The position numbers and the translations under genes were made by a program. Positions 8,089-43,026 of a stretch of DNA of 47,574 nt are shown in pieces (position 1 is the first letter of the stretch; every line of letters begins with the position of its first letter). The notes under the pieces were generated by a model, which had not been told where the DNA came from, did no database searches, and saw nothing but the letters and a program-made list of their open reading frames with translations. The stretch is from a virus: the IMG/VR virus record IMGVR_UViG_3300034198_011086, positions 1 through 47,574 of that record; one strand, 5' to 3'.

Positions 8089-8103
8089 TGAAAGGGTATG
8101 AAA

Positions 8104-9171
8104 ATGTCTCACTATAAGCATGAGGCGCGTGAAGCCAACAAAGCAAAGATGAAGCGTATGGGGCTTGAAAAAGAGCCTCAGCATCGCGGTTTTAGTGACA
8201 CGGAACCATATGATGGCGTTCCGTTCGTAGACAGTGGCAACGCTGGGAAGATGCCTGTTGGCCGCCAGATGCGCAAGCATGGTGGAAAGGTAGTCGATGC
8301 CGAAGGCATGATGTGCGGCGGCAATCTTGGAAAAAAGCCGCGCAAGGCTGCGGGTGGCATAATCTCGTCCAACCCGGTTCAGCGCAAAAAGATTGTTGGT
8401 GCATTGGCGATGCGCAAGAAACGCGAAGGTCTACCGTCCGCCCCGCCGAAGCCGTTTATGACAAAACAGTCTGGCGTTGCCGGTATTGGCTCTTTGCCCG
8501 CCAAAAAGGGCGGCAAGGTCACTTGGGAAGGTTCCAAGGAAGACGAGGCGCAAGACAAGAAGCTGGCTAAAAAGCACCATATGAGCATGGCTGCTTGGGA
8601 GAAGTCAGACCTCGACAAAAAGCATGATCGCCAAAAGTCCATGAAGGGGCTTAAAGATGGCGGTTCCATCTTCCAAAAAGATTCTAATGAAGAGATGACT
8701 GCTGAGCAGCAGGAAGCGGCCAAGCGTGAAATGGAACGCCTGCGCCGGAGGGCTCAAGAAGAAGGCGCGGGTGTCCGTAAGCATGGTGGCCGGATTCATC
8801 GCGCGACTGGTGGCCGTACCAAGGCTAAGGGCAAGACCAATGTGACGATTAACATTGCTCCCCCGCAGCAGAATCAGCCCGCAATGCCGCCGATGCCTCC
8901 GGGTATCATGGGCGGTCTTCCCCCGATGCCGCCTCCGGGCGCTATGCCAATGCCTCCGATGGGTCCGATGCCTGCTCCTGCGGGCGCTGGCCCGGGCCTT
9001 GGAGCTATGGCTGGTGGTCCCGGCGGCATGGCTCCTCCAATTCCCCCGATGCGTAAAGCAGGTGGCCGCGTAAGGGGAATGCCCAAGTATCAGGAAGACC
9101 AATATGGTTCGGGCAGTGGCCTTGGGCGGCTTGAGAAGGCTAAGTGGCCGCCCGCAGATGGGGCCGAATAG
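8104..9171 (+). CDS. Basic, Gly/Pro-rich virion-associated protein
   Basis: About 355 aa of low-complexity sequence between the portal and the head genes. The N-terminal two thirds are very basic and carry repeated K-x-GG-[KRS]-[VI] words ([38 protein letters not shown]). Residues about 255-320 are Pro/Met/Gly-rich (repeats of PPMPPG type). ATG 8104 is preferred because GGG at 8094 is well spaced for it. Similar GG words recur in other virion proteins of this genome. Likely a DNA-associated or internal head protein; this is inference from charge and position. Confidence 0.7.
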
Positions 9172-14101: not shown

Positions 14102-14365
14102 ATGTCTGGTGCTTGGACGCGCAAGGAAGGCAAGAATCCCGAAGGCGGGTTAAATGAACGTGGTCGTGCCTCTCTAAAGTCTGAAGGGCACAATATTAAG
14201 CCGCCAGTTTCCCGTGAACATGCTATGGCGTCAGAAGAAGCCGCAGCCCGTCGCAGATCATTCTGTGCCCGGATGACCGGCATGAAGAAATCTTTGACAA
14301 GCGCAAAAACGGCACACGATCCTAATAGTCGGATCAATAAATCCCTTCGCAAATGGGATTGTTGA
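14102..14365 (+). CDS. DUF6321-like phage protein
   Basis: An 87-aa basic protein with the pattern AWTRKEGKNPEGGLNERGRA, then RRRSFCARMTGM near residue 60. This is the signature of a small T7-like phage family (DUF6321 as I know it). The shared Arg-Ser-Phe-Cys-Ala-Arg-Met block is invariant-looking, which suggests a structural or nucleic-acid role, but none is established to my knowledge. ATG 14102 is chosen over ATG 14090 because GGAGG (14092) would lie inside the longer version and is well spaced for this one. Confidence 0.75.
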   Translation: MSGAWTRKEGKNPEGGLNERGRASLKSEGHNIKPPVSREHAMASEEAAARRRSFCARMTGMKKSLTSAKTAHDPNSRINKSLRKWDC

Positions 14366-14366
14366 T

Positions 14367-14531
14367 ATGGCCGACAAACCTTTTTGGGAGAAAAAAGCTC
14401 CCGAAGATGCTATAAAGAAGCATCTAAGCCGCAAGCAGATTGAGACTGCGAAAGCGAAAGCTAGGGCGGCTGGCAGGCCTTATCCGAATGCCGTTGATAA
14501 TATCGCGGCTGCGAGAAAAAAGGGGAAGTAA
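14367..14531 (+). CDS. Small basic hypothetical protein, 54 aa
   Basis: A short gene of 54 codons beginning MADKPFWEKKAPEDA 1 bp after the previous stop. It ends with KARAAGRPYPNAVDNIAAAR and a Lys-rich tail. The AAGRPYPN-VDN block is a pattern I know from other small phage proteins in head operons. The next gene follows after 1 bp. It is basic and helical; no function known. Confidence 0.7.
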   Translation: MADKPFWEKKAPEDAIKKHLSRKQIETAKAKARAAGRPYPNAVDNIAAARKKGK

Positions 14532-14532
14532 A

Positions 14533-14880
14533 ATGCAACCCATCACCGTTTCCACGACGAACGCAACCGCCGGAACGACCTATAGTTCCAAGGTCCGCAT
14601 GGATAGTTGGGCCGCGGCACAGTCAATTATTCAGGTTGATGTGACGGGGACCGCCACCTACACGGTCGAAACAAGCATGGATGATCCCGATAGCCCGACG
14701 AATCCTGTCCCTGTTGCAAGTATGACTTGGATTAATTGCGCGGATGGTGCTGTTGTTGGCAAAACGGCGAGCGCTCAGGGCGTTTTGGCGGCCACACCGA
14801 CATTTGTTCGCATCAAACAGACAGCGGGTAATGGCTCCACCACCATGACCATCGCGCAATTCAGCAACGTACCGCTCTGA
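14533..14880 (+). CDS. Beta-rich structural protein
   Basis: A 115-aa protein from ATG 14533, just after the previous stop. It is rich in Thr, Val and Ala with regular alternation (QSIIQVDVTGTATYTVETSM, TFVRIKQTAGNGSTTMTIAQ), so probably a beta sandwich. The layout is that of small phage head or connector proteins. A longer frame exists upstream but would overlap the whole 14367 gene, so it is not used. Confidence 0.65.
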   Translation: MQPITVSTTNATAGTTYSSKVRMDSWAAAQSIIQVDVTGTATYTVETSMDDPDSPTNPVPVASMTWINCADGAVVGKTASAQGVLAATPTFVRIKQTAGNGSTTMTIAQFSNVPL

Positions 14881-14881
14881 T

Positions 14882-15598
14882 ATGGCGTCTTCCGGCACAT
14901 ACGACTTCAATCCTTCGCTTGGCGAAATCCTGCTAAACGCATTTAGCCGGTGCGGGATTCGTCGTACTGCCATCCTTCAAGAACATCTTCAGGATGCCCG
15001 TTTCGAAACAAACTTGATGTTTACGGAATGGGCAAACCGTGGCGTCAACCTTTGGAAGGTTGACAAGCAAAGCATCCCGCTTGCTCAAGGCGTGGCGACC
15101 TATTATGCGGACTCAACGCTTCAACCAAATGGGGCGTCTAAGACGATTATGGTTCTGGATGCATATATCACCACAGGCAACGGTCAAAGTCAGTTTGATC
15201 GCGTAATCATGCCGATTTCTCGCACGGAATACGCGCAAGTTCCGAACAAAAACCTTCAATCTCCGCCAACATCTTTTTGGTTTGATCGTCTTATTAACCC
15301 AACGATCACCTTGTGGCCTGTCCCTGATCAGTCAAACCAATATACGTTAACTTTTTATCGCGTTATCCAAATCCAAGACGCGGAAGTTAGCAATGCTCAG
15401 ACATTGGATGTTCCATATCGTTGGCTTGACGCCGTATGTTCTGGCTTGGCGGCTCGCTTGTCCGCTATTTATGCGCCAGAACGGCTTCAATTGCTGACGG
15501 CGAAGGCGGAACAGTCCTATCAAATTGCGTCTACGCAGGACACCGAAAATGTCCCGCTATACATTATGCCGGGGCTCTCGGGATATTACAGGACGTGA
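14882..15598 (+). CDS. Head-tail adaptor, P22 gp4-like
   Basis: Predicted connector ring protein that sits under the portal and closes the filled head, 238 aa. The N-terminal helices (GEILLNAFSRCGIRRTAI, DARFETNLMFTEWANRGVNL) followed by beta stretches (SKTIMVLDAYI, TITLWPVPDQSNQYTLTFY) and a final helical block (RWLDAVCSGLAARLSAIYAP) match the gp4-type adaptor family. It follows the capsid unit, as in P22-like podoviruses. Starts one base after the previous stop. Confidence 0.75.
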   Translation: MASSGTYDFNPSLGEILLNAFSRCGIRRTAILQEHLQDARFETNLMFTEWANRGVNLWKVDKQSIPLAQGVATYYADSTLQPNGASKTIMVLDAYITTGNGQSQFDRVIMPISRTEYAQVPNKNLQSPPTSFWFDRLINPTITLWPVPDQSNQYTLTFYRVIQIQDAEVSNAQTLDVPYRWLDAVCSGLAARLSAIYAPERLQLLTAKAEQSYQIASTQDTENVPLYIMPGLSGYYRT

Positions 15599-15601
15599 CG
15601 T

Positions 15602-16564
15602 ATGGCCTATCGTCCTCATGGTCGCGCCCAAGTTAATATCAATAATCCTCGTGCATTTGCGCGATGCGATAGGTGCGGGTTCATCTACAACCACAGTGAT
15701 TTGCGCTGGCAATATGACTATCGTGGTCCAAGATTGGCAAACTTGAGGATTTTGGTTTGCCAGCCTTGTTATGATAAGCCGCAGGCGCAACTTAAACCAA
15801 TTCTCATTACACAAGACCCAATCCCGATCCTCAATGCGCGTCCTGAGGACTATGTCTACGCGAATACCAACAAGCGCACGACATCAAATCAATCTTTAAC
15901 GCCGACTTCAGTGTCCGGGAACGGCACAAATGCCACGTTTACGTTCAATATTGACTCGTCTGTGGCTGCTGTTGCTGTCGGGAGTACGGTTGTTATCCAA
16001 GGCATGGTCCCAACAAGCTATAATGGGACGTATCTTGTCACGGCAGCCACAAATACCCCGGCGTGGACAATAACAATACCGAATACGACAACGGCGGCTT
16101 TGGCTTATGCGGGTCAAGTTGTAATCAATATTGATCCCAAGACTGGGTTGCCGGTTGTTTCTGTTGATACCCGCATTACGGATACGGGAAGCATTCGGTC
16201 TACGCAGCCGATTGGCATTCCAACAGGGTTCAATGCTGATGCTGTGCCGCCATTATACTTGACCACGCAGAACAACAGGGTCTTGGACCTTGTTTCGTTG
16301 GTCTCCGATGGCAATTACACGGTAACAGCGACAACGATCACGCCGCATGGCCTTGCGACCAATGATTCTGTGGCGGTCGAGGACGTAAACAATAACACGG
16401 CTTTTGGCTTCTATAGTGTGACTGTGGTTTCGGCCACTGTTTTCACCTATACGGTTAACACTCCGATAGTCGCCGGAAGCCTTTTGACTGCAAACACAAG
16501 AATAAGTGTGGTATTGGTTGGATTGCCCACGGATTACAACCAAATACCGCAGACGGGGACCTGA
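15602..16564 (+). CDS. Zinc-ribbon structural protein
   Basis: A 320-aa protein with an N-terminal Cys4 zinc-ribbon: ARCDRCGFIYNHSDLRWQYD at about 20-39 and LRILVCQPCYDKPQ at about 48-61. The remaining 230 residues are Thr/Val-rich repeats of beta type (NATFTFNIDSSVAAVAVGST, VTATTITPHGLATNDSVAVE), like Ig-ish virion domains. It lies between the adaptor and the large fibre, so it is likely part of the connector or fibre attachment. I know similar Cys4 proteins in other short-tailed phages only as structural proteins of unknown role. Confidence 0.7.
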   Translation: MAYRPHGRAQVNINNPRAFARCDRCGFIYNHSDLRWQYDYRGPRLANLRILVCQPCYDKPQAQLKPILITQDPIPILNARPEDYVYANTNKRTTSNQSLTPTSVSGNGTNATFTFNIDSSVAAVAVGSTVVIQGMVPTSYNGTYLVTAATNTPAWTITIPNTTTAALAYAGQVVINIDPKTGLPVVSVDTRITDTGSIRSTQPIGIPTGFNADAVPPLYLTTQNNRVLDLVSLVSDGNYTVTATTITPHGLATNDSVAVEDVNNNTAFGFYSVTVVSATVFTYTVNTPIVAGSLLTANTRISVVLVGLPTDYNQIPQTGT

Positions 16565-19162
<2,598 letters not shown>

Positions 19163-19425: not shown

Positions 19426-19739
19426 TGCTTCGCGCAAAAGCACTCGCACTTGGCGGCTTGCACGGTACGATCTACGACTTTGAGAACGTCGGGGATAGGC
19501 TCCCGATGCACATTCATACAGCAGACAACAACCATATAAGCATCGTGGCGCGGGGGTCCATTCGTACATCAGGGAACGGCTGGGAAAAGATATGCACAGC
19601 GGGCGACGTAATCGACTGGCGCCCCAACGATCCGCACGAATTTACAGCCCTTCAGCCAAATACGCGCGTCGTGAATATCGTAAAGGGCCGGGGCCAGCCG
19701 GGGCAAACTTTTGTTGGAGGGGAAGACAATGCCGTTTAG
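19425..19739 (+). CDS. Cupin-fold protein
   Basis: A 104-aa single cupin. Motif 1 is PMHIHTADNNHISIVARG (residues about 27-44; His pair for metal) and motif 2 is GDVIDWRPNDPHEFTALQP (about 65-83), ending in a strand with VVNIVKG. Cupins of this size include sugar isomerases, epimerases and metal-binding storage folds. Here it overlaps the methyltransferase-glycosyltransferase gene, so a role in sugar modification is plausible but not shown. Starts on the TAATG overlap. Confidence 0.75.
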   Translation: MLRAKALALGGLHGTIYDFENVGDRLPMHIHTADNNHISIVARGSIRTSGNGWEKICTAGDVIDWRPNDPHEFTALQPNTRVVNIVKGRGQPGQTFVGGEDNAV

Positions 19740-21312
19740 TTCAGAGAAGGGGAAAGAAAGTATCAAGCGCATAATTGAGCGTGTTCCTCACGCGACAATG
19801 CTTGATGTCGGTTGCGGCTGTGGGACATACGCACTCATGTTTGACGATGCCGAAATAACCGGCGTTGAGATATGGGAGCCATATATTGAGAAGTACAATC
19901 TCCGCACGCTTTATGATGACATCATTCTTGCGGATGCACGCGAATGGGAGCCTGACGCTCACTATGATGTCGCAATAGCCGGTGATGTTCTTGAACACAT
20001 GACCGCAAATGAGGCTGAAGAGCTTCTCAAAAAGCTGCGCAAGTGCGCTGATACGGTCGTTGTTAGCATCCCGATTGGCTATTACCCGCAGGGTGAATAT
20101 GACGGCAATCCGCACGAAACTCATATAACCGATGACTGGACGCACGAGAAGTTTGTTGAGGCGTTCGGTACGCCCGACTGGCATAAGATTGACGGCGAGA
20201 TTGGCGTTTATATTTGGTCAAGACATAAGGTCCGCCCGAAGATTGCCGTCTATGCAATCAGCAAGAATGAAGAAACCTTCGTGGACCGTTTCTGCGAAAC
20301 TGCGAAAGACGCCGACCTGATCTCAATCTCAGACACAGGAAGCACCGATGAGACGGTTGAAAAAGCTCGGACGTGTGGTGCTGTGGTCAATCATATATGC
20401 ATCACTCCTTGGCGGTTCGATCATGCTCGCAATGCTGCTCTCGCTCTTCTTCCTCGCGATATTGATATTTGTGTATCACTCGATCTAGACGAGGTTTTGC
20501 AGCCCGGATGGCGCGAGGAGATAGAGCGCGTCTGGGAGCCGGGGACGACGACGCGCCTGCGTTATATGTTCGACTGGGGCTGTGGCATCGCATTCAAATA
20601 CGAAAAGATACATGCCCGCCACGGCTATTATTGGCATCATCCCTGCCACGAATATCCTGTGCCGGATGGGCGGATAAAGGAAGTCTGGGCCGACACGGAC
20701 ATGCTTCTGGTTATCCATAAGCCTGACCCGACGAAGTCACGCGGTCAGTACCTTGATCTGCTGGAGCTATCGGTTAAGGAAGACCCGGACTGCCCCCGCA
20801 ATTCGTTCTATTACGCCCGCGAGCTTTCGTTCCACGGCAAATGGCGCGAGAGCATTGAGGCGTGCGAGCGTTATCTGAAGCTCCCCCGTGCTACTTGGCC
20901 GAATGAGAGGTGCTACGCCTATCGCGTTATGGGTCGCTGCTACAACGAGCTTGGCGAGCCTTGGAATGCGGAGCGCATGTTCCAGATGGCGGCGTATGAA
21001 GCTCCCAATACCCGCGAGCCTTGGTGTGAACTGGCGATGCTTATGTACCGCCAACACCGTTGGGAGGAGTGTTTCGCTTCTGCCATGCGTGCGTTGAGGA
21101 TTAAAGACCGCATGATGGTCTACACTGTTGACCCTGAAGTATGGGGGCATCAGCCGCATGATCTGGCAAGCATCTCCGCTTATCACCTTGGACTTCGGGA
21201 TATTTCTATAGAACAAGCCAAAATCGCTCTTGAACTGTCTCCTCAAGACAAGAGGCTACAAGCCAATCTTAACTTCCTGATTGAGGGGCCTCTAAAGGAA
21301 AAGGCAGCATGA
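19729..21312 (+). CDS. Methyltransferase-glycosyltransferase-TPR fusion
   Basis: A 527-aa three-part protein from ATG 19729 (GGAGG box). Part 1 (about 1-165) is a class I SAM methyltransferase: MLDVGCGCGTYALMF (motif I), GVEIWEPYIE, and YDVAIAGDVLEHM. Part 2 (about 168-340) is a GT2-type glycosyltransferase: KIAVYAISKNEE, SISDTGSTDETVE, WRFDHARNAALA and the metal site SLDLDEVLQPGW. Part 3 (about 350-527) is a TPR-like helical array (FYYARELSFHGKWRESIEAC, LAMLMYRQHRWEECFASAM). It could add and methylate a sugar on a surface glycan or on the neighbouring GPT fibre. Such a chain is large for a phage tail-module enzyme. Confidence 0.85.
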   Translation: MPFSSEKGKESIKRIIERVPHATMLDVGCGCGTYALMFDDAEITGVEIWEPYIEKYNLRTLYDDIILADAREWEPDAHYDVAIAGDVLEHMTANEAEELLKKLRKCADTVVVSIPIGYYPQGEYDGNPHETHITDDWTHEKFVEAFGTPDWHKIDGEIGVYIWSRHKVRPKIAVYAISKNEETFVDRFCETAKDADLISISDTGSTDETVEKARTCGAVVNHICITPWRFDHARNAALALLPRDIDICVSLDLDEVLQPGWREEIERVWEPGTTTRLRYMFDWGCGIAFKYEKIHARHGYYWHHPCHEYPVPDGRIKEVWADTDMLLVIHKPDPTKSRGQYLDLLELSVKEDPDCPRNSFYYARELSFHGKWRESIEACERYLKLPRATWPNERCYAYRVMGRCYNELGEPWNAERMFQMAAYEAPNTREPWCELAMLMYRQHRWEECFASAMRALRIKDRMMVYTVDPEVWGHQPHDLASISAYHLGLRDISIEQAKIALELSPQDKRLQANLNFLIEGPLKEKAA

Positions 21313-31130: not shown

Positions 31131-34100
31131 ATGGGTTCCTTTTGCTCTTCTAAACCGCAAGTTTCGACGTATACGCCGCCCGCTGCTGTTACGCAGGGCT
31201 ATAATACGCTTTTGAACTTTGCCACACCCCTCCTGAATCAGCCTTACCAGCCCTATCAAGGCAATCTGGTGCAGGGGCTAACGCCTATGCAACAGGCGGC
31301 TGGACAGGGCATTGCTGGTCTTGCCGGGTCAACGGACCCTTACTTTGGGGCGGCTGCCGGATTGGCATTGCAGGGTTCTCAGCCCCTTCAAATGCGGCAA
31401 TTTACGCCTCAGGCTGTCCAACAGTATGAATCTCCGTACCTCCAAAATGTAATGGGATCGACTGCCCAAAACATCATGGAGACCAACGCGCAGCAGCAAA
31501 ATCAGCTTCTGGGGAACGCTATCCAGCGCGGAGCATTCGGTGGCGACCGGGGACGGGTGGCTCAGGCAGAGCTTACCCGCCAGCAGAATCTTGCGAACAA
31601 CGCTACTCTCGCGAACATTGCGAATCAGGGTTATACGCAGGCTCTGGGGCAGTTCAATCAGCAACAGATGACTGATCTTCAGCGGCAGTTGCAGAGCGGC
31701 CAATTGGCTCAGTCTGGGGCTGGGCTTCTCGCTCAAATGGGACCGGCTCAGCAGCAGGCTAATCTGTCGCAGCTTGGCGCTCAGTTGCAGTATGGCGGGC
31801 TGCAGCAGCAGTTGGGACAGGCTGGCCTCAGCACGGCTTACCAGCAGTTCCTGAATCAACAGCAGCACCCATACAATATCGCCAATTGGTTTGGTGGTCT
31901 TATGGGCGGCGCTGCCAGCGGCATGGGTGGCACAACCACGACCACGGCGGCCCAGCCCAGCTTGTTTAACCAGATTCTGGGCTTTGGTGGCGCACTGGGC
32001 GCTATGGGTGGCTCTGGAGGCATCGGTGGCCTTGGAAGTTCGTTGATGAGTGGATTAGGCGCTATATTGCCGTTTTCAGATGAGCGTTTGAAAGAAAATA
32101 TCAAGCACGTTGGCAAAACCAACGATGGACAGAATATCTATTCATATAACTTCAAAGGTGAAGACCCGCTTCAAACTCATCTGGGCCTGATGGCTCAAGA
32201 AGTAGAGATGGTTAAGCCTGAGGCTGTCCACGACTTTGGTGGCTTCAAGACCGTAGACTATCAAGCCGCGACTAAGGAAGCGGCTATTCCTCATATGGCG
32301 GATGGCGGCGTGCCCAGTGGTATACTTGGCATGAGCCCAATAGCCGGTATGCAGGCGCAGTCTTATGTCCCCCAAGCGATGCAATCTCAAGGTGGGTTCA
32401 AGCCGCCCCAGCAGCCTCAGATGGTCGATCCTAATAAGGACCTTGAGGGGGCGGTTAAAAACATCCGCGCCATGATGGGAACAAAGCAGGAACCTGCAAA
32501 GAAAGAGCCTGCAAAGCAAGAGGCTCCTCGTCAGCTTGGCCCAACGGCTCCGGTTGGTGTTGAAGGTATTGGAACAAACACGACAGATACCATACCGGCT
32601 GGCACGGCTGATCTTGGGCAGCTTTATGCGGATGGCGGCTCCGTCAATCCGTTTAACTTTGGATACGGTTTGCAAACCAAAGATGACCTGTCCCAGATGG
32701 CTCAGTCTCATGCTGGGTCTGGCATGATGGGTCTGCGTCCTGAAGAGGAAGCCGAAGCAGCAACTGGTATTCTTGGCGCAGCTATGGGCGGTCGTATCCA
32801 TTATGCGGATGGTGGCCCTGCTGAAACTGGAGGCTTGCCAGACCGCCCGCTTCCAACCACGTCTGCGGGTTCTGCTCGTATGCAGGATGAGCCGCCTCCT
32901 GATGTCGAAACGACGCCAGTTAATCTTACGAGGAGAATCCCTCAGGCTCCGAAACAGCCGGATTTCTTGAGCTATATTCTTCCGCGCGAAAGCGGCGGCA
33001 ATCCTAACGCAAGGAATCCTAATAGCAGCGCAAGCGGCATTGCTCAGATCACTGACGCGACTTATCAGAGTGCCATCGCCCGGAATCCCGCGCTTGCAAA
33101 TCTCGGCAAAAACGACCCGCGTGTGATTGAGGATATCCGCAGTAACAATGCTCGCATTCTTCAGTCTCAAGACATCGAGCCCACGAACCAGAACCAATAT
33201 ATGTCTTGGTTCCTTGGCGCTGGTGGCGGCCCTCGCTTCATCAAGGGAATGCAGGAAAATCCCAATCGTCCCGCGACGGAATTGGCGCAGCCCGGTCAGG
33301 TTTCCGCCAATCGCACCGTGTTCTTTAACCGTGACGGAACGCCTCGCACGGCGTCTGAGGTGTTCAATTTCCTAAATCGTCCAATGGGCGGTCAGGGCGT
33401 GATTGCTGCGGCTCCTCAGGGCGCACAGGCCCCGCAGGGGGTTGTGGGGCAGACGACTCGTCCTCCCGCTTCTCCAGAAGAGGCGCGTATACCGATCCAA
33501 TCTCGCGCGACCAAGGAAGGCTTATTCGGGATGCTGGGCATCGAAATGACGCCTGAGCAGCGTCTGGCCTTTATCCAAGCATCTCTAAAGCTTGCGGGCA
33601 CCCCGGGTCGTCCGGGTGTTGGTCTTGCTGCGGCAGCGGATACCTATGCCAAAACGCTTCTTGAGGCTCAGAAGGGCCAGCGCGAATCTGCTACCGCACA
33701 GGCGGGCACTGAGCGTGAACGTGCTGCTGCAAGGCTTTCCGAGCAGGAAGCGGCATCTAAGGGTATCATGCCGACATATGGCGGACTTATTCGCACAACT
33801 CCGACGCCCGGGGGTGGGGTGCAGGTTGAGTCTATCCGCGTGCCAAAGCCGGGTGAAAGGACGGTTGTTGGTGAGCCGGGAACGTCTGCCCAACCTGAAA
33901 CTGGAGCGCCAAAAGCGCCTACCGCTCCTACGGGAACGGAAGCTGCACCACCGACTGTTGGTGGCGTCCAACAGGCATTTAATTTTATGCCGTTGGCTGC
34001 CAACGAGAAAGCCGCTGAAAAGCTATCTGCTCTTGATAGAAGCGCAGAAAGGATTTTGCAGCAAGCTAGTGGATTGGGCGGCCAAGAGATGAGAAAAGAA

Positions 34101-34766
34101 TTCAGCGAAATTAACGGCCAAGCCCAAAGTGCGGGTAAGGCTGCTGGTGACGCTGTCTCTGGCATTCAGTCTCTTATTAAGGCAGTAGCGAGCGTTCCGG
34201 CCAACGGCTTGCTTACAGGCGGTGCGTTGGATGACTTCCGCTATTCTATAGCCAAATACATTGATACGGCGGCCAGTGTCGCTGGCGTCAATCTTGGCAT
34301 TAGCGATCTTCGGTCCAACAAAGAGGTTTTGGAAAAACTTTCCAGAATCAATACTCAGGAACTTCAACGTGGCCTTGGCCGTGAAGCCGGTTTCTGGTTG
34401 TCTGAACTAGCAAAGAGCTATCCCAGCACGGCGTTGTCTCGTGAAGCGGCAGCAAGTTTGGCGGCTGAAATCATCAGCAAAAACCAATTGTCAATTGACC
34501 GCGCTCAGCTTTATCGGTTGTACGGCGACAAGACTTACGACACGGGTATAGATGCTGAACGTGTCTTCCGTGAAGTTGCTCCTGCCGCCCATTATGCTGA
34601 AGAAAAGAAGCTAATCGAAAATATCTTGCTTGATCGGCGCTGGGCAGGCAAAAACAACCCGCTTATTTTGCTCCAACAAAATCCGACTTCTCGTGAGTCG
34701 TTTGATCGCGAGATCGCAAAGCGGTATGGTCCAGCTAACTTGTCTCGCTACGTCTTCGGGAGCTGA
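31131..34766 (+). CDS. Large internal (ejection) protein with S74-type chaperone and transglycosylase domains
   Basis: A 1211-aa multi-domain virion protein. Residues 1-310 are Gln/Ala/Gly-rich helices. About 316-375 is an intramolecular-chaperone (peptidase S74) domain: SDERLKENIKHVGKT, with Ser 316 and Lys 321 at the spacing of the self-cleavage dyad of endosialidase tails, then THLGLMAQEVE. About 380-600 holds ADGG-type words. About 612-760 is a lytic-transglycosylase-like domain: SYILPRESGGNPNARN with Glu 620, then SASGIAQITDATYQ. The rest is helical (ERTVVGEPGT linker, then coils). It likely enters the cell with the DNA and opens the wall. Confidence 0.78.
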   Translation: MGSFCSSKPQVSTYTPPAAVTQGYNTLLNFATPLLNQPYQPYQGNLVQGLTPMQQAAGQGIAGLAGSTDPYFGAAAGLALQGSQPLQMRQFTPQAVQQYESPYLQNVMGSTAQNIMETNAQQQNQLLGNAIQRGAFGGDRGRVAQAELTRQQNLANNATLANIANQGYTQALGQFNQQQMTDLQRQLQSGQLAQSGAGLLAQMGPAQQQANLSQLGAQLQYGGLQQQLGQAGLSTAYQQFLNQQQHPYNIANWFGGLMGGAASGMGGTTTTTAAQPSLFNQILGFGGALGAMGGSGGIGGLGSSLMSGLGAILPFSDERLKENIKHVGKTNDGQNIYSYNFKGEDPLQTHLGLMAQEVEMVKPEAVHDFGGFKTVDYQAATKEAAIPHMADGGVPSGILGMSPIAGMQAQSYVPQAMQSQGGFKPPQQPQMVDPNKDLEGAVKNIRAMMGTKQEPAKKEPAKQEAPRQLGPTAPVGVEGIGTNTTDTIPAGTADLGQLYADGGSVNPFNFGYGLQTKDDLSQMAQSHAGSGMMGLRPEEEAEAATGILGAAMGGRIHYADGGPAETGGLPDRPLPTTSAGSARMQDEPPPDVETTPVNLTRRIPQAPKQPDFLSYILPRESGGNPNARNPNSSASGIAQITDATYQSAIARNPALANLGKNDPRVIEDIRSNNARILQSQDIEPTNQNQYMSWFLGAGGGPRFIKGMQENPNRPATELAQPGQVSANRTVFFNRDGTPRTASEVFNFLNRPMGGQGVIAAAPQGAQAPQGVVGQTTRPPASPEEARIPIQSRATKEGLFGMLGIEMTPEQRLAFIQASLKLAGTPGRPGVGLAAAADTYAKTLLEAQKGQRESATAQAGTERERAAARLSEQEAASKGIMPTYGGLIRTTPTPGGGVQVESIRVPKPGERTVVGEPGTSAQPETGAPKAPTAPTGTEAAPPTVGGVQQAFNFMPLAANEKAAEKLSALDRSAERILQQASGLGGQEMRKEFSEINGQAQSAGKAAGDAVSGIQSLIKAVASVPANGLLTGGALDDFRYSIAKYIDTAASVAGVNLGISDLRSNKEVLEKLSRINTQELQRGLGREAGFWLSELAKSYPSTALSREAAASLAAEIISKNQLSIDRAQLYRLYGDKTYDTGIDAERVFREVAPAAHYAEEKKLIENILLDRRWAGKNNPLILLQQNPTSRESFDREIAKRYGPANLSRYVFGS

Positions 34767-34768
34767 GC

Positions 34769-37700
34769 ATGGCTAGTCCAGTTGACTTTGAAAAGATTTT
34801 TGGTCAAGCCGAGCCTGCCAAACCTTCCGCATCGCCTACGGGAAAACCCGCAGAACGCGAAGCAATAGATTACGGCAAGATTTTCGGTCAAAAAGAAGCG
34901 CCAGAATCCAAATCTGAAGAAGCTTATAGGGCCAAGGTTGAAAGCCTTATGCCTCGCGCCCGGGAAGAAGTTAAGGGCGGATTGACGGGCGGCTATGCGA
35001 CGGCTTTTGCTCGTGGCGTTGGAGATATTCCTTTCATTGGTCCTGCTGGTGAAGCAGCCACTCGGGCTATTATGGCAGGGCTTGGGGCTGGCGAAGGCAA
35101 AAACTTCAGCGAACGTTATGAACAGCTTCGGGCGGAAGACGAGGCGCTGCGCAGGGCCTATAGCGAAGGCACCGGGCATAAGATTGCGGGGGCAATCGGT
35201 AATATAGGCGGGGCGCTGGCATTACTGCCTACGGGCCTTGGAGCAGCCTCAGGAACGGCAGCGGCGGCGCGTGGCGCTGGGACGGTAGGGCAGACAGCCG
35301 CCAAGATCGCTGGATACGGCGCAGAAGGCGCTGGCTATGGCGCGGCAACTGCGGCTGGTGAAAAGCTATTTGGCACCGCCCCCGAAAGCGAGAAGATGGG
35401 CATCGGGCAAGCCGCGCTGTTGGGTGGCGGTTTTGGTGCTGGTCTTGGCGCGGCAGGAATGGGCATTTCCAAAGCTTGGCGTGATTATTTCCCAGATTGG
35501 GCCAAGACGTTTGGACGCACTGACTCTAAACAATGGCGGGAATTGAGCGAGGCGTTCAAGGAGGATACTGCTTCTGGAAAATTGGGCATGACGCCGCAAG
35601 AGGTGGCTGAGGCTAGACTGCGTGGTCAGCCGGTCAATCTTATGGATATTGGCGGCCCTTATGTACGGGCGGCGGCTCAGAAGATCGAGAAAGCTAATCC
35701 TGAAGCTCTTGCTGAATATAAAGCTTATATGGAAACTCGTCTTGCTGGGGCGCGGCAGCGCTTCGATGAGTTTTTGGCCGAGCCTTCTATATTTGGTCCT
35801 CCTGTCAATCCCTCTGTTTTGAAAGAAGATGCTCGTAGGTTGGCAAAGCAGCTTTCTGATGAGCGTTATGCTAAAGCACTGCAACCGGGAAATGGTTACG
35901 GGTCTTGGGATAAATCTTGGGATATCTGGTTGAAGAATCCGGCTTTTCGAACGGCCATCGCACGGACTGAAGACGAAATTAAAAGCATCATGAGTGGACG
36001 GGATAAAATTGATCCTGTTAACTTTGTTTCTCCTTTTAAGGAAGTATATCGCATCAACCCAAAGACTGGTGTTCGTGAACCGCAATTCGTTGCAGGAACC
36101 CGTTTGCCGCAACTTCAGATTGCTTTTAAGAGCAAGGTGGATATCCCTTATCTGGACGTTCTCCAGCGCAATTTGAATGACATCGCAAAGCGTGGGTTTG
36201 AATCTACCTATGGGACTCGCGGAGGTACGGGAACTGCTGCTGCTGACATTCGCCGCGAAATATTGGATGCTCTTCAGAAACCAGAAGGGAAGTTCTATAA
36301 CCCTGCTTATGCGGAAACGCGGGCAAAGTATCGGCAGTTTATGGGGCCTGAGCGTGATGCCTATACGTTTGGCGAGCAACTGCTAAGCCGCGCAAACAAT
36401 ACGATGGAATCCGCGCGTCTGGCGAATGCTTCTCAGTATATGAGCCCAAAAGAGCGTGAGATTGCCGCCTCTATGTTAATGGAGGACTTCAGGAATCGTA
36501 CATCTAAGATGAGCTTCGACGCCATCCAGAAGAATTATTTCAGCAAGCCTTATATCAATCAGGCTATGGAAGCTGTTTTGACGCCAGAAAAGATGGCTAA
36601 TCTGAAGCGCTTTATCGCGACCGAAAACTTGATCAAGCAATCGGTGCAGGCTGTTCAAGGCATCCGCAACTCACCTGAGCGCGCCAATCAGGCTTCATCT
36701 CTGATGTGGGCCATTATGTCTGGCGGCCATTGGTCTTCTTTTGTTCCGTATCTTGGGAACTGGGCAACAACTAATCTATCCCGGGGTTATTCTCGGAAGT
36801 TCATTGAAAAGCTAAAAACCAACAATGTCGATGACATTATGGCGGCAATGAACATGATCGCCAAGAACAAGTCTTGGGCGCGTAACTTTGCGGAACATGT
36901 TATTAAAACTGCCCCAGCAATTGGTGGCGTGGCGGCAGGGAATTTGCAGAACTATCAACCGCCCCAGTTCGCTCGCGGCGGCGCTGTTAGCAAATCAAAC
37001 CAACGCAATCAGGACATCCACAACGCGACTCAGGGCCTTCTAGTTCATGCGATGCAAGGCATGGCGGATGGGGGCATGGTGGATAAAGCCGCCAAAAGCC
37101 TTCAGGAAATGGGAGGATCGCCAGAACAGCCTGAACCTACTGAGGGGCAACCTGAACAAAATAATCCCCTGACGAATGATGTTTATCATGGCACTCAGGG
37201 CGATTTCTCTGAGTTTAAGGACGATCCGCAGCAGCACTCTTTGTCTCGCGGCCTTGGCATCCATGTAGCAAAAGACCCGGCTGTTTCCAGCGCGGATTAC
37301 TTCACTGCGCGTGGAGGTGATCCTCGGCACGGCGGGCGTCCGGGCGGCAATGTCATGCCTATGAAGACATTCCCCGACGAAAAGTTCTATCCTATTTACC
37401 AGCCCTTTGAACCTGATCAGGGCGATTATTATCATGATGACTGGGCGATCAGAAACGAGATTATGGCCCATGCTTATCAGAATAACCCTGATCTGTTCGT
37501 CAAGAACATGATGCAACAGCGCAAAATCTCAAAAGAGGAAGCGCTCGATGCTCATGAGAAGTTGTCGAACGGGGAACGGTGGCACGATCCTTCTGGCGGC
37601 AGTGCCATAAACTTCCGCGGTTTGGTGAAGAACTATGCTTTACAGCCGTATTCGCCGGAAGACCGCGAAATGGCAATTCGCATGTTCCGCGATGCCCTTC

Positions 37701-39166
37701 GCGAGCAGGGCTATGAAGGCGTAAAGTACATCAATACTTCCACAGAAGAGACAAAGAACGCCAAAGACAAGACCGCCTATATCGTCTTCCCTGATGAAAA
37801 GAAGGAAGGTGAATGGTTCCCGCTAAGGTCCCGGTTTGCCAAATTTGACCCTGCGCAGTCCCATAAGGCGGACATCACAAAAGAAGATGGCGGTCCTGTA
37901 GGCCATTATGACGATGGCGGCGCTGTGCAGGAGGCAACGGCACAGGATTATAACCCATCTTTAAGGGATCGCATTGGCGGATTTTTGGCGGGAGAATCCC
38001 GCCCCGGATCAGCCCGTTATAATCTGGCTAAAGGATTGATGGGATCGGCTGGTGTTGATAGTGGGGGTACGGGGCTTGTGGATTTCATACCCGGTGTATC
38101 CGTTCCCTTTGCTGCTCAAGACGCCAAAAGGGAAATGATGGCTGGCAACTATGGTGCCGCCGCACTAAATGCGCTTGGTGTCATTCCTGCGGGGCGTCTG
38201 GTTGGAAATATTGGAGCAAAGGTGTCTGCACCTTCCGTTGGCGAAGGCATCCGGGCATACCATTCATCTCCATCAACCTTTACAAAGTTTTCCGACAAAA
38301 CTATCGGTTCTGGAACAGGGATGGGATACTATGGCCGTGGCCATTATCTCTCAGAAAGTCCTCAGATAAGTGGTCGCGGCGGCTATTATCACGATATATT
38401 CGCAAGCAGGATTGACCAAAATAGCCCGGAGTCCGTTGCTCTTAAGCTTCTACCAATAGTTAATTGGGATAAAACGGCTGCGGCGGCTGAACTTCGGCGG
38501 TATGCAGGAAAAATGTCTGATCCAGACAAGCTGAATCTTGCGAACCAAGCCGCGGATTTGCTTCAATCGGGAAAGCAGATTGGTCCCCGCACCTACGAGA
38601 CAACAATCAAGGCGCATCCAGATCAGTTCATAGACTTCTTCAAGCCACTAGAACAGCAGTCAAAATACATACAGGATGTTGTGGCAGCAGACCCACGGCT
38701 TGCAAAATACTTTGGCGGGAATGGCCCGGTCTTAGGCCGTACCGCGGAAGGTGACATTCAAAGACTTGGGCGCGATTTAGAGCAAGGATTCATCCAGAAA
38801 GCCAAAAGGGCGTTTGGATTGCCCGCTTCTAGTGGGGAGGAGCTTGCAAACAAGTATCTTATGAAGCGCGGAATTGAAGGAAAAGTTTACCCTTCTGATG
38901 AGCTTGCAAGGTCTTCAACACCAATACTACCCAAAAATTATGTTGTCTTTGACCCTAACAAGATCAACATAGAAAAAAGTTATAAAGCGGGTGGTGTTAC
39001 TCGCAAAAAACGGGCAACAGGCGGCAGAATCCCCGAAGTGGATAAAATGTTCAGGGCCGCCAAACGGGCCTTGGATGGTGAAACCAAGCAGGTTCTCCAT
39101 ACCCCGGACGATATTGTAGTTCAAGCTCTACGCATTGCCAAGTCAACGCCGACATTCAAAGGGTGA
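34769..39166 (+). CDS. Giant ejection protein with two ADP-ribosyltransferase-like domains
   Basis: A 1465-aa virion protein starting 2 bp after the previous gene. The N-terminus has a twice-repeated DF/DYEKIFGQ-like word (FEKIFGQAEP, YGKIFGQKEA), then a Gly/Ala-rich, membrane-friendly region (about 95-240) and a helical middle. The first ART-like domain runs from about 798: DVYHGTQGDFSEF, GLGIHVAKDP, ending YIVFPDE and RSRFAKFDPAQS. The second runs from about 1157: IRAYHSSPSTFTKFSD, YGRGHYLSES, ending NYVVFDPNKI. This matches the ART-PolyVal type seen in polyvalent phage proteins. Likely injected to modify host proteins early; activity not proven. Confidence 0.78.
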   Translation: MASPVDFEKIFGQAEPAKPSASPTGKPAEREAIDYGKIFGQKEAPESKSEEAYRAKVESLMPRAREEVKGGLTGGYATAFARGVGDIPFIGPAGEAATRAIMAGLGAGEGKNFSERYEQLRAEDEALRRAYSEGTGHKIAGAIGNIGGALALLPTGLGAASGTAAAARGAGTVGQTAAKIAGYGAEGAGYGAATAAGEKLFGTAPESEKMGIGQAALLGGGFGAGLGAAGMGISKAWRDYFPDWAKTFGRTDSKQWRELSEAFKEDTASGKLGMTPQEVAEARLRGQPVNLMDIGGPYVRAAAQKIEKANPEALAEYKAYMETRLAGARQRFDEFLAEPSIFGPPVNPSVLKEDARRLAKQLSDERYAKALQPGNGYGSWDKSWDIWLKNPAFRTAIARTEDEIKSIMSGRDKIDPVNFVSPFKEVYRINPKTGVREPQFVAGTRLPQLQIAFKSKVDIPYLDVLQRNLNDIAKRGFESTYGTRGGTGTAAADIRREILDALQKPEGKFYNPAYAETRAKYRQFMGPERDAYTFGEQLLSRANNTMESARLANASQYMSPKEREIAASMLMEDFRNRTSKMSFDAIQKNYFSKPYINQAMEAVLTPEKMANLKRFIATENLIKQSVQAVQGIRNSPERANQASSLMWAIMSGGHWSSFVPYLGNWATTNLSRGYSRKFIEKLKTNNVDDIMAAMNMIAKNKSWARNFAEHVIKTAPAIGGVAAGNLQNYQPPQFARGGAVSKSNQRNQDIHNATQGLLVHAMQGMADGGMVDKAAKSLQEMGGSPEQPEPTEGQPEQNNPLTNDVYHGTQGDFSEFKDDPQQHSLSRGLGIHVAKDPAVSSADYFTARGGDPRHGGRPGGNVMPMKTFPDEKFYPIYQPFEPDQGDYYHDDWAIRNEIMAHAYQNNPDLFVKNMMQQRKISKEEALDAHEKLSNGERWHDPSGGSAINFRGLVKNYALQPYSPEDREMAIRMFRDALREQGYEGVKYINTSTEETKNAKDKTAYIVFPDEKKEGEWFPLRSRFAKFDPAQSHKADITKEDGGPVGHYDDGGAVQEATAQDYNPSLRDRIGGFLAGESRPGSARYNLAKGLMGSAGVDSGGTGLVDFIPGVSVPFAAQDAKREMMAGNYGAAALNALGVIPAGRLVGNIGAKVSAPSVGEGIRAYHSSPSTFTKFSDKTIGSGTGMGYYGRGHYLSESPQISGRGGYYHDIFASRIDQNSPESVALKLLPIVNWDKTAAAAELRRYAGKMSDPDKLNLANQAADLLQSGKQIGPRTYETTIKAHPDQFIDFFKPLEQQSKYIQDVVAADPRLAKYFGGNGPVLGRTAEGDIQRLGRDLEQGFIQKAKRAFGLPASSGEELANKYLMKRGIEGKVYPSDELARSSTPILPKNYVVFDPNKINIEKSYKAGGVTRKKRATGGRIPEVDKMFRAAKRALDGETKQVLHTPDDIVVQALRIAKSTPTFKG

Positions 39167-39428
39167 TTGAATACTCACAGCCTTCGACAAACCGAAGGTT
39201 GTGAGTCCCCGGCCCATAGACGCGCTTGGTTGTGATCCATCCAAGCTTCTTGAGCCGCCCAATTGTGCGGACAATGATAGAGACAGGAAAGCCAGTTTTG
39301 GCGGCAACCCCTGTGAAGCTGTCTGTGAATCCGTCCTGCCCATAGGAATTGATCAACATCATCATCACGATCTTATCGCGAGGCGATGCTGTCTTGTGCA
39401 ACAGGACCTTGAGGTTGATCTGATCCAT
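39156..39428 (-). CDS. Winged-helix DNA-binding protein
   Basis: A 90-aa leftward protein whose segment DKIVMMMLINSYGQDGFTDS followed by VAAKTGFPVSIIVRTIGRLK and KLGWITTKRVYGPGTHNLRF reads as a winged helix: helix, recognition helix, wing. Such domains occur in phage replication initiators and repressors. Its 3' end overlaps the convergent 1465-aa gene by 11 bp. No ribosome site is visible at ATG 39428, which lies 3 bp after the previous stop. Confidence 0.7.
   Translation of the reverse strand: MDQINLKVLLHKTASPRDKIVMMMLINSYGQDGFTDSFTGVAAKTGFPVSIIVRTIGRLKKLGWITTKRVYGPGTHNLRFVEGCEYSITL
39173..39206. terminator. Long bidirectional hairpin between convergent genes
   Basis: ACTCACAGCCTTCG (39173-39186) pairs with CGAAGGTTGTGAGT (39193-39206) around a 6-nt loop: 14 bp with one G-T. 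It lies just after the 1465-aa gene and inside the end of the opposing gene. It has no T run, so it could slow or stop polymerases from either side. Confidence 0.5.
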
Positions 39429-40283: not shown

Positions 40284-40841
40284 TTAAATCCAGCCGATCA
40301 TAGGCCGTCCCTGATACCCATGCTCCCAAACAAACCAAGCAAACGAGATCATGCCGCCCCCGGGGTAGGCATTTTCGTCTCCGTTTCTGCTCATTTTAAG
40401 ACGCTTTGAGAAGACCCAGACATTCTTGAGCGGGGTTGTTTTCAGGAACGCGCTGCGCTTACCGCCCTCCAGAAACGCCAGCTTCAAGAGCATAGCCACC
40501 TTGCCGCTGGTGCAAGATAACGCCTGCTCCACAAACTCCTGCGCGTGCCTGAACGGCGGATTGGTGATGACATTCTCCACGAAGATGCCATCAGACTTCA
40601 GGAAGTCCGCATTGGGCGTCCCGTAGCCTTTGTCGAGCAGGTCTGACGATATGACATCGTGGAAATGGCTGATCAGGACCTCAGAGATTGCCCCTGTCCC
40701 GCAAGCTGGTTCCCAAATCATACCTTCGAAATCTTCGACGCTTAGGAGCGCCTCCGTGGCCCGTACAGGGGTGACATAAAAATCATCCGCAGGGCGGCCC
40801 TTGGAGACGCCTACAAGGCTCTGGGCGCGCTGTAGTGATCT
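40284..40841 (-). CDS. N6-adenine DNA methyltransferase, start codon unclear
   Basis: A class I methyltransferase of the phage Dam-like type: DDFYVTPVRATEALL near the N-terminus, SAM motif I in WEPACGTGAISEVLI, SSDLLDKGYG, the catalytic TNPPF, and an EGGKRSAFLKTTP tail with FAWFVWEHGY. The frame stays open upstream to TTG 41126, but that stretch is a shadow of the SSB-like gene. Between that gene's stop (40840) and DFYVTP there is no ATG, GTG or TTG in frame. A GTG at 40846 in the neighbouring frame reads VVDHYSAPRA and would need a -1 shift to join. Target site not predictable. Confidence 0.75.
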   Translation of the reverse strand, partial: RSLQRAQSLVGVSKGRPADDFYVTPVRATEALLSVEDFEGMIWEPACGTGAISEVLISHFHDVISSDLLDKGYGTPNADFLKSDGIFVENVITNPPFRHAQEFVEQALSCTSGKVAMLLKLAFLEGGKRSAFLKTTPLKNVWVFSKRLKMSRNGDENAYPGGGMISFAWFVWEHGYQGRPMIGWI

Positions 40842-41133
40842 ACCACGGGATCGAGTCGTTGGGCTCGTCTGCGGGCTTTCCAGCAGGCTTGCTTGATCCA
40901 AAGGAACGCTGCTGTCCTCCTGATCCTCCACCGGACTGTCCTGCTCCGCGCTGCTCTCTTTTACGGAAGGAGAAGCTAAGATATTCGTTTCCGTTACGGT
41001 CTGTTTTCCGCCATACGTTGATCCAGTACTCAACTCCATCAACCATTCCTCTTCCGGTAAGGTCGGCATGGTTTGGCTGTCCTTTCTCTTGCTGAAATAC
41101 GGTTCCAGAATTGTCTTTTTGCTCAAACCCCAT
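40840..41133 (-). CDS. SSB-like (OB-fold) protein
   Basis: A 97-aa protein: MGFEQKDNSGTVFQQEKGQ, YWINVWRKTDRNGNEYLSFS and a Gly/Gln-rich linker ending in DSIPW. The strand pattern matches small phage single-strand-binding-like proteins. The acidic, aromatic-ended tip (DEPNDSIPW) closely copies the DDIPF tip of bacterial SSB, which recruits repair and replication partners. It sits in the recombination cassette just after the DUF1367-like gene, whose end it overlaps, and has a GGAGG box. Confidence 0.72.
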   Translation of the reverse strand: MGFEQKDNSGTVFQQEKGQPNHADLTGRGMVDGVEYWINVWRKTDRNGNEYLSFSFRKREQRGAGQSGGGSGGQQRSFGSSKPAGKPADEPNDSIPW

Positions 41134-41590
41134 GATCTGCCTCCTTGAGGATGGTGTTTAGTTTCATGCCTAACATGCTCTCAACCTCCGCGATTAGGGT
41201 GGCCTTGTGCATCCCGGGAAGAACTTCGGTCACGATCAGATCGACCGACTCATCAAAGAACTTCCTAAATTCGTCCTGCTTCATTGAGTTGAAACTGATG
41301 GAAGCCACTGTCCAGTGAGCTTGTCCATCGTGGAATTTGACCTCACTAACATAGCCAAGTCTAAGCTTTAGCCATAGCAAAAGTTGCTCAGGTTTGTTGT
41401 AGAAGTCACTGTTTTCGCACACTAAACGCAGAAGGCCCATGAAGAATCTGTGTTGTTTTGTGCTTCGGGGTCTTCTGATTTCAGCGGTCAGGTCTTTGCC
41501 TTCGGGAAAGGCAAGTAGAGCCTCCTCGTCCGCATTTGAGCAGGGGACCAATGTGGCCCCCCGCCGCCTGACAAACAGAGTCTCACTCAT
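41123..41590 (-). CDS. DUF1367-like phage protein
   Basis: A 155-aa protein with RRPRSTKQHRFFMGLLRLVC near residue 40 and FNSMKQDEFRKFFDESVDLI further on, matching the phage DUF1367 family (R-S-x-x-Q-H-R at the helix start, then a Ser-Phe-x-x-M-x-Q-D-E-F block). The family is found beside phage recombinases; its function is unproven. Overlaps the ERF gene at its start and the SSB-like gene at its end, so a single transcript is likely. Confidence 0.75.
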   Translation of the reverse strand: MSETLFVRRRGATLVPCSNADEEALLAFPEGKDLTAEIRRPRSTKQHRFFMGLLRLVCENSDFYNKPEQLLLWLKLRLGYVSEVKFHDGQAHWTVASISFNSMKQDEFRKFFDESVDLIVTEVLPGMHKATLIAEVESMLGMKLNTILKEADHGV

Positions 41591-42242
41591 GTATTACCTC
41601 TTCAGCGGCCTTTTCCTTCAAGTACTGCTGCACCGCCTTGAACTCCATGTCGATCATCTTTTGATGCTCGGCGGTCAAACGCTCTTTATTGGCCTTGTTT
41701 TCTGTCGCCCACGCAATCAACTGCTCGCGTGTCTCTACCATATTAAGAGCAGACTTCATGCCTTTAGCCAAAAATTCGCTATCGGCGTTGTCAAGCGTTG
41801 CGGGCTTGATCGCTTTGGTGTTTTTGGCGGTAGGTTTAGAAGGCGCAGACTTGGCGTCAGATGCCGTGTTGCCATCGTCATCATCTTCGCCAGCAACTCC
41901 CACAAGACCAAATATCGAATAGCGACGTGCATAAGTCATCGCGGAGCCCATTGCCTGATGTTTATCAGGACCGCATACGGGATACACGGATTCAAGCCAC
42001 TGTCCGCTTGAGTGCATCAAGCGCGTATGAAGGAAAATAAATTCTTCATCAATCCGCGTAGCCTGCACAAAAGCAATCCCGTGCTTGCCCAGAATTTTGC
42101 GGATAACATCAAGACCATCCGCCAGATCGACATAGCTACTCTGGAAGTGTGGATTGATTTTGTTCTTTGGCGGGTTCTGTAGTTCGACTTGCGCCTTGGC
42201 AAGTGCTTGAGCCAAGTCACCAATGTTTTCGGACGTAATCAT
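41583..42242 (-). CDS. erf: ERF-family single-strand annealing protein
   Basis: A 219-aa predicted single-strand annealing recombinase (P22 Erf type). The N-terminal domain has NIGDLAQALAKAQVELQNPP, NPHFQSSYVDLADGLDVIRK, HGIAFVQAT and AMGSAMTYARRYSIFGLVGV, the family core. The acidic run GEDDDDGN and a Lys/Ala/Pro linker lead to a C-terminal helical tail. Such proteins pair with an exonuclease to repair and circularise phage DNA; the YqaJ-type nuclease is directly upstream. Good GGGAGA box. Confidence 0.88.
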   Translation of the reverse strand: MITSENIGDLAQALAKAQVELQNPPKNKINPHFQSSYVDLADGLDVIRKILGKHGIAFVQATRIDEEFIFLHTRLMHSSGQWLESVYPVCGPDKHQAMGSAMTYARRYSIFGLVGVAGEDDDDGNTASDAKSAPSKPTAKNTKAIKPATLDNADSEFLAKGMKSALNMVETREQLIAWATENKANKERLTAEHQKMIDMEFKAVQQYLKEKAAEEVIHE

Positions 42243-42243
42243 C

Positions 42244-43026
42244 TTATTCTCCCTTCAGACGCAGTGCGCCACGCTTGTCGCGCTTGATTGAGACTCCATA
42301 TCCAAACGCTTCAACCACATCATCCTCCACAAGAGCCTTGATGCCCTTGGATGCAGATTCATATGCTTTGTACTGTTTGGCATTATCTTTCAATTGAGCA
42401 GCAAATGATGCCCATTCATTAGAGCCGCTCATGTCAACGCGGCGCACCGCAGCAACAGGAGCAGATACCTGAATTGTAACAGGCGGCTCTCCAGACTTGA
42501 TTGATTTCCAGAACCTTTCTACAGCACCAACAAGAATGGCGGCGTAGATTTCGTCCTTCTTGACCTCAAACTTCTCCCATTTATTGTTGCCAAAAAACAC
42601 CGATAAAACGGCCTTTTCTAGCCCACACACGATCATGTTGTGATGAAGCTGCGGCAAGTAGCGATCAAGGATTTCGTCTTCCTTGGAATAGGCAGACACA
42701 TGCTTCATCTCAAAGACGGTTTCCCCATCATCAGTCAAGCCGTCAAGAGTGCATCCCATGAAAGGATATTCTTTTGAGAGTAACTGCTGCTGCTGGTTGG
42801 TAACGATCCGCCCAGTGTTCTTGGTAAACCACCGCTCATTCAATGGTTCAGTGAACGTCCCCATTTGAACAGCAAGAACATCATCAAGGTCTTCGTCTTG
42901 CTCTTCACCGCGCTTGATGCGCCAAAGCTTGAGGACAGCCTCAGGCTCTCCGCTCATGATAACTTTCACATCCGATCCGCCAATACATTTGGATCGAAAC
43001 AGCTTCTGTTCTGGTGTAAGTCCCAT
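42244..43026 (-). CDS. YqaJ-like / lambda-exonuclease-type recombination nuclease
   Basis: A 260-aa predicted 5'-3' exonuclease of the PD-(D/E)XK fold. Seen: SKCIGGSDVKVIM (residues 12-24), the Glu in GTFTEPLNERWF, Asp 95 in MGCTLDGLTD, and the ExK pair Glu 106 and Lys 108 in VFEMKHVSAY, then YLPQLHHNMIVCG. This is the metal-binding set of the family. The partner annealase gene follows after one base. Likely roles are DNA end resection and phage recombination. A long helical C-terminus may bind the partner. Confidence 0.88.
   Translation of the reverse strand: MGLTPEQKLFRSKCIGGSDVKVIMSGEPEAVLKLWRIKRGEEQDEDLDDVLAVQMGTFTEPLNERWFTKNTGRIVTNQQQQLLSKEYPFMGCTLDGLTDDGETVFEMKHVSAYSKEDEILDRYLPQLHHNMIVCGLEKAVLSVFFGNNKWEKFEVKKDEIYAAILVGAVERFWKSIKSGEPPVTIQVSAPVAAVRRVDMSGSNEWASFAAQLKDNAKQYKAYESASKGIKALVEDDVVEAFGYGVSIKRDKRGALRLKGE

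Follow-up and report, generated by a model that had tools for sequence, protein, structure and literature searches.

The ADP-ribosyltransferase (ART) Alt of phage T4 is packaged in the head and injected into the host, and we know of no case in which Alt is fused to the body of an ejection protein. Another group of phage ARTs comprises the ART-PolyVal domains (PF18760; Tox-ART-HYD2 clade) of polyvalent proteins. A single protein may carry just one of them or as many as 12, and they are predicted to enter the host by injection and to modify its proteins (Iyer et al. 2017, PMC5512222). The MuF polymorphic toxins of temperate phages are virion proteins with a conserved N-terminal part and a variable effector part (PMC5576092). 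Among ejection proteins, swapping of lysozyme domains is known and T7 gp16 requires positively charged C-terminal residues, and a review of these proteins discusses no ART or effector cargo (PMC8954989). In this study, we analyzed a virus record of 47,574 bases (IMGVR_UViG_3300034198_011086; hereafter, the window) and in particular its open reading frame (ORF) 34769-39166. The record would come from an uncultured tailed phage with two large ejection (internal virion) proteins, and this ORF would encode the second of them. Sequence comparison with relatives indicates that the protein holds an exchangeable slot between a body and a C-terminal tail that are both conserved, and that two ART domains, A and B, occupy the slot here.

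Both domains are related to PF18760 and, like ART-PolyVal, lie in a multi-copy arrangement; unlike the published examples, each scores below the Pfam cut-off and A departs from the H-Y-D active site. As a carrier of ARTs, the body of an ejection protein together with a dedicated tail at the C-terminus is not mentioned in the available part of PMC5512222. By analogy with T4 Alt, the protein is predicted to be delivered with the DNA and to modify the host early in an NAD+-dependent manner. However, Alt belongs to the R-S-E clade, whereas the window domains fall in the H-Y-D group (PMC5512222), and Pfam gave no Alt/VIP2 family match for the window protein. As in the MuF toxins, a conserved N-terminal part is combined with a variable effector part in a presumed virion protein, but the N-terminal body is a different one and the variable part lies inside the protein, with a conserved tail after it; no MuF match was obtained with Pfam, PHROGs, or NCBIfam. 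The presumed position and role are those of T7 gp14, gp15, and gp16 and of the P22 ejection proteins (PMC8954989). As an analogy only, the WHIX double-blade effectors of the type VI secretion system also use a delivery chassis able to hold two effector domains, although they belong to a bacterial secretion system and carry distinct toxin types (PMC12135965). The parts of the gene and the gene preceding it are as follows.

31131-34766, plus strand: upstream ejection protein, 1211 amino acids, matching phrog_4287 (DNA ejection protein), an S74-like chaperone domain, and an SLT transglycosylase domain.
34769-39166, plus strand: whole gene, 1465 amino acids with an ATG start, beginning 2 nucleotides past the stop codon of 31131-34766.
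34769-36988, plus strand: conserved body, residues 1 to about 740, 54-55% identical to that of the relative L207 and 28-36% identical to those of more distant relatives.
36968-36988, plus strand: GG linker FARGGAV, residues 734-740, at the boundary of body and cargo.
37061-37081, plus strand: second GG linker MADGGMV, residues 765-771.
37172-37897, plus strand: ART domain A, residues 802-1043, with H807, with H832 at the Y position, and with an altered strand 5 (F1007-P1008-D1009) followed by the motif RSRFAxFDPA.
37880-37927, plus strand: GG linkers KEDGGPVGHYDDGGAV, residues 1038-1053, joining A to the spacer.
37928-38242, plus strand: spacer of about 105 residues separating A and B, matching no family.
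38243-38992, plus strand: ART domain B, residues 1159-1408, with H1165, Y1193, and D1395; D1377 and R1381 are also conserved.
38993-39163, plus strand: C-terminal tail RATGGRIPEVDKMFRAAKRALDGETKQVLHTPDDIVVQALRIA, residues 1409-1465, kept at the C-terminus among relatives.

Using the upstream ejection protein as a marker, an alignment-based scan yielded 64 related contigs (designated here by L and a number). Homologs of the 1465-amino acid protein align with it over residues 1 to about 740, then pass through an unrelated middle, and finally align again over the last 50 or so residues; an unaligned middle followed by a re-aligned tail was observed in L207, L208, L214, L263, and others. The slot thus defined corresponds to residues about 745 to 1408 of the window protein. 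A hidden Markov model (HMM) of the tail matched C-termini only, save for one internal partial copy in L223/L224. The tail was 38-87% identical to that of the window and exceeded the body in identity in nearly every relative. In L231, L236, L237, L241, and L248, the body was detectable only by profile-profile comparison (233 columns, probability 97.9), with tails 63-69% identical. Many tails end in basic residues. Hydrophobic Ala/Gly-rich stretches lie in the body at residues about 139-166 and 211-233, some relatives match phrog_5880, a family of unknown function, and the body showed no sequence match to solved ejection proteins.

The content of the slot differed among the relatives. It was empty or nearly so in L209, L212, L215, L217, L221, and L262 and in a distant group including L219, L227, and L234, and these cargo-less proteins measure 765 to about 950 amino acids. 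A-type ARTs were found in L208, L214, and L263, and other ARTs above the PF18760 cut-off in L207 (34.6 bits), L226 (54.4 bits), and L241 (66.4 bits). A lysozyme-like region was read by eye in L222, L228, and L238; the transglycosylase-like stretch of these cargoes, also read by eye, is ESSYGQNTYNMSSGAFGPWGLTP, and Pfam gave no match for L238 at E 0.5. Cargo regions of about 500-600 amino acids each and of unrecognised type are present in L211, L213, L231, L236, and L248. They may represent an unrecognised effector family; the three tested with Pfam (L211, L231, and L248) had no match. In the Manatee Spring phage MW202675, no ART is present and the tail match is only weak (23 bits). Past residue 700, the motif GGx[VIL] occurs in the relatives at 8.8 per 1000 amino acids versus 1.3 in the body. 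In the window protein, such linkers (ARGGAV, ADGGMV, DDGGAV, and TGGRI) bracket the domains at 36968-36988, 37061-37081, 37880-37927, and 38984-39031; recurrent GGx[V/I/L] motifs are present in the upstream ORF 31131-34766 too, and other ART-bearing viral ORFs carry similar GG motifs.

An initial annotation, made from the sequence of the window, had proposed that the C-terminal region holds two ART-PolyVal-type domains. The motifs on which it relied were all found, namely YHGT (806-809), GLGIHVA (828-834), and AYIVFP (1003-1008) in A and YHSS (1164-1167), YGRGHYL (1188-1194), and NYVVFD (1390-1395) in B, and the measured gap of about 115 residues between the domains agrees with the separation of about 110 given there. 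In a six-frame Pfam search of the 47.6-kb record, PF18760 matched only two places, 37181-37306 (E 7.5e-5) and 38240-38377 (E 0.0026), both inside ORF 34769-39166, and it was the best Pfam match for A and for B. Furthermore, Pfam recognised ART-PolyVal in 33 of the 43 members of the A alignment and in 52 of the 54 members of the B alignment, which bears out the proposed type for both regions.

Independent viral sequences were fetched with a DNA pattern based on the RSRFAxFDPA motif of A; 53 distinct ones pair a YHG-type start with an RSRFAxFDPA end. With an HMM of 62 fetched domains, the window A scored 66-71 bits. Because the motif had served to fetch these sequences, it was trimmed from the HMM, and A still scored 45.6 bits. 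The window B scored 39-46 bits with an HMM of eight 'IGTGEGAQAYGHGLYF'-type domains and 99 bits with a larger HMM of 72 domains. The best score among 500 shuffled copies of the protein was about 6-7 bits, which ruled out chance motif matches. The cross-scores were low (A, 71 bits with its own HMM versus 10; B, 46 versus 21), indicating that A and B belong to two different viral ART subfamilies; a recent duplication of one ART is excluded, since each domain scores far better with the HMM of its own subfamily. Neither this difference nor the slot architecture appeared in the initial annotation. Polyvalent proteins unite several domains with unrelated biochemical activities in a single polypeptide that is delivered with the DNA; in the 1465-amino acid protein, two ARTs and the presumed virion body were recognised, and no second kind of enzyme was found with Pfam, PHROGs, or NCBIfam. 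NCBIfam returned nothing for the ORF and PHROGs nothing above chance.

Relatives were recovered only by the DNA-pattern and alignment-based scans. Neither tblastn of the whole protein and of its domains against phages and plasmids nor single-sequence scans of viral contigs with A, B, and the body gave a meaningful relative. Bacterial genomes scanned for A and for the tail also contained no relative, and these scans consequently provided no evidence of a prophage and no clue to the host.

AlphaFold2 gave confident models of both domains, with a mean pLDDT (predicted local distance difference test) of 81 for A and 83 for B and a pTM (predicted template modelling score) of 0.78 for both. Compared with viral models, the A model matched ten proteins at E<1e-3, all from uncultured caudoviruses or unnamed; among the weaker matches (E 0.02-0.12), three are annotated as PolyVal ADP-ribosyltransferase or ART-PolyVal.

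We favor the reading, at a probability of roughly 0.7, that the protein is a second large ejection protein with a swappable ART cargo, that it is delivered to the host, and that B ADP-ribosylates a host molecule there. The protein would be carried in the phage head and leave it together with the DNA; injection is plausible from the 'DNA ejection protein' match and the transglycosylase domain of the preceding ORF. By analogy with the C-terminal half of T7 gp16, the C-terminal part would then enter the host cytoplasm, where B, which retains the full H-Y-D site, may use NAD+ to modify its target early in infection, as T4 Alt does. A, with an H-H-(D/E) arrangement, might modify a second target or act as a non-canonical NAD-binding or accessory domain. 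Between phages, the cargo would be swapped, gained, and lost, with the body and the tail retained. Several observations weigh against this reading. The PF18760 scores were 18.7 and 14.9 bits singly and 26.3 bits together, short of the gathering cut-off of 31.2 bits; A deviates at two of the three published catalytic positions (H832 for Y, and F1007 in the D column); and in a fold search of the PDB, neither the A nor the B model had a significant match. The fold prediction suggested in the initial annotation supplied confident models of both domains but no significant PDB match for either, and PDB searches by sequence and by fold revealed no credible relative.

The active-site rule for the Tox-ART-HYD2 clade places H on strand 1, Y on strand 2, and D on strand 5 (PMC5512222). 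B carries all three residues, H1165 (54 of 54 in its alignment column), Y1193 (54 of 54), and D1395 (41 of 54). The R-S-E site of T4 Alt and VIP2 is absent, as the invariant strand-1 residue is H and not R. In A, H807 is kept in 43 of 43 alignment members, and the residue D1009 lies two positions past the D column, in a strand-5 region with an 8-residue insertion; if the region is read ungapped, E1015 takes the D position. The rival with the best standing is that B is the transferase and A a pseudo-enzyme, now a regulatory, binding, or structural partner. The H and F of A at the Y and D positions favor it, as B keeps the whole triad, and the same positions vary throughout the A subfamily (F, Y, or H at the second; D, N, E, or K at the third), so that loss of catalysis may be common there. 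On the other hand, other members also have H at the second position (5 of 43, and 9 of about 100), and for this reason the reading of H832 as a sign of decay was downgraded. Moreover, A is 55% identical to the single-copy A of L263, whereas the two bodies are about 30% identical; L263 retains both histidines and has E at the position of D1009. Between these two copies of A, the third position differs in 64% of codons and the second position, which is constrained, in 21%. Judged from this identity and codon contrast, A is conserved and not decaying. We regard a pseudo-enzymatic A as the less probable view. The earlier suggestion of two host targets, or of one active and one degraded copy, is half borne out: the triad is intact in B and incomplete in A, but A is not decaying.

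Rather doubtful, in our estimation, is the alternative that A and B are NADases, or act on a nucleotide or nucleic acid, and deplete or block host defence signalling without labelling proteins. Some phage ARTs may be NADases or NAD+ phosphorylases (PMC9503650), and the sole ART-fold protein noticed in the PDB list of the A model was the RES toxin 6gw6, at a non-significant E of 2.9. Against this, no residue signature here tells hydrolysis from transfer, and the general prediction for ART-PolyVal domains is protein modification (PMC5512222).

Exchange of the cargo was examined in pairs of relatives. At 81-87% DNA identity, L211 and L212 run colinear apart from a single in-frame insert of about 605 codons in L211, which spans residues 816 to 1420; the flanking protein is 88% identical on both sides. 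The body of L226 is 68% identical to that of L263, whereas its C-terminal ART and tail, on a second gene, are 65% identical to those of L237, whose body has no detectable BLASTP similarity to that of L226. In L226 and in L254/L255, the body and the ART are encoded by two genes that show a Shine-Dalgarno-like sequence and an overlap of the form TAATG/TGATG; in these split-gene lineages, the ART gene and not the body gene carries the tail. When nine cargo labels, some of them assigned by eye, were placed on a tree of 20 bodies, they required 11 changes against a minimum of 8 and a shuffled mean of 13.2; the cargo therefore tracks the body tree weakly. Within L223 (ORF 14197-17733), residues about 888-943 resemble the 'DWDKPLSQQS' region of B and are followed by a partial tail, upstream of a different cargo and an intact tail; with an HMM support of 7.9 bits, which is weak, this stretch looks like a fossil of a displaced earlier cargo.

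Chimeric contigs or gene-calling artefacts are a very improbable source of these differences: the close relatives are all metagenomic contigs, but the reading frame is open across every junction, the colinearity of L211 and L212 extends to either side of the insert, the split genes have the start signals described above, and the same cargo types occur in independent samples. The view that the region serves as an inert linker or a structural stretch, with ART motifs arising by chance, can practically be dismissed, for although both single-domain scores lie beneath the Pfam cut-off, the two subfamily HMMs, the 500 shuffles, the conservation of the expected columns, and the confident models contradict it.

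At least two domain matches were present in 30 of the 194 non-identical ART-bearing ORFs collected, with exactly one A-type and one B-type in 18; as the sample was gathered by ART motifs, 30 of 194 is no prevalence figure. A small number of the 30 (L093, L032, L082, and part of L074) appear to be single domains that the search had cut in two. The ART pair alone is ordinary, since tandem ARTs in injected phage proteins have already been published.

Elsewhere in the window, a hairpin, CTCACAGCCTTCG-ACAAAC-CGAAGGTTGTGAG, lies directly 3' of the stop codon of the gene at about 39172-39205, without a T run, and is a possible operon end. A block on the minus strand (40284-43026) encodes a DNA methyltransferase, a NinB/Orf-like protein, an Erf-like annealing protein, and a RecE-like exonuclease. 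The ORF at 19711-21312 strongly matches the phage beta-1,4-glycosyltransferase family phrog_13126 (E 4e-99), whose annotation is host takeover. After the portal gene, a 357-amino acid ORF (8098-9171) contains seven GGx[VIL] motifs, including two RKHGG, and has no PHROG match.

The literature searched held no precedent for an ejection-protein chassis with an internal cargo slot, for a near-perfect pair with and without cargo such as L211/L212, for an exchange of body and cargo such as that among L226, L263, and L237, or for a conserved tail that accompanies the cargo where body and cargo are encoded by separate genes. The slot architecture suggests a swappable route for effectors into bacteria, and the turnover of the cargo probably reflects an arms race with the targets or defences of the host. 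We propose tentatively, and as something short of an even chance, that the tail acts as a portable signal for packaging or ejection: any domain placed before it, in the same protein or in a separate cargo gene, would be delivered into the host. Alternatively, the tail could be conserved merely because the C-terminus of an ejection protein is needed for infectivity, by analogy with T7 gp16. If the tail does act as a portable signal, the protein would be a phage counterpart of the effector chassis of secretion systems, with ARTs as a frequent cargo. A delivery signal of this kind would help to explain how short-tailed phages can gain new effectors for injection while the injection machine stays as it is, and would offer a simple handle for finding many more such effectors.

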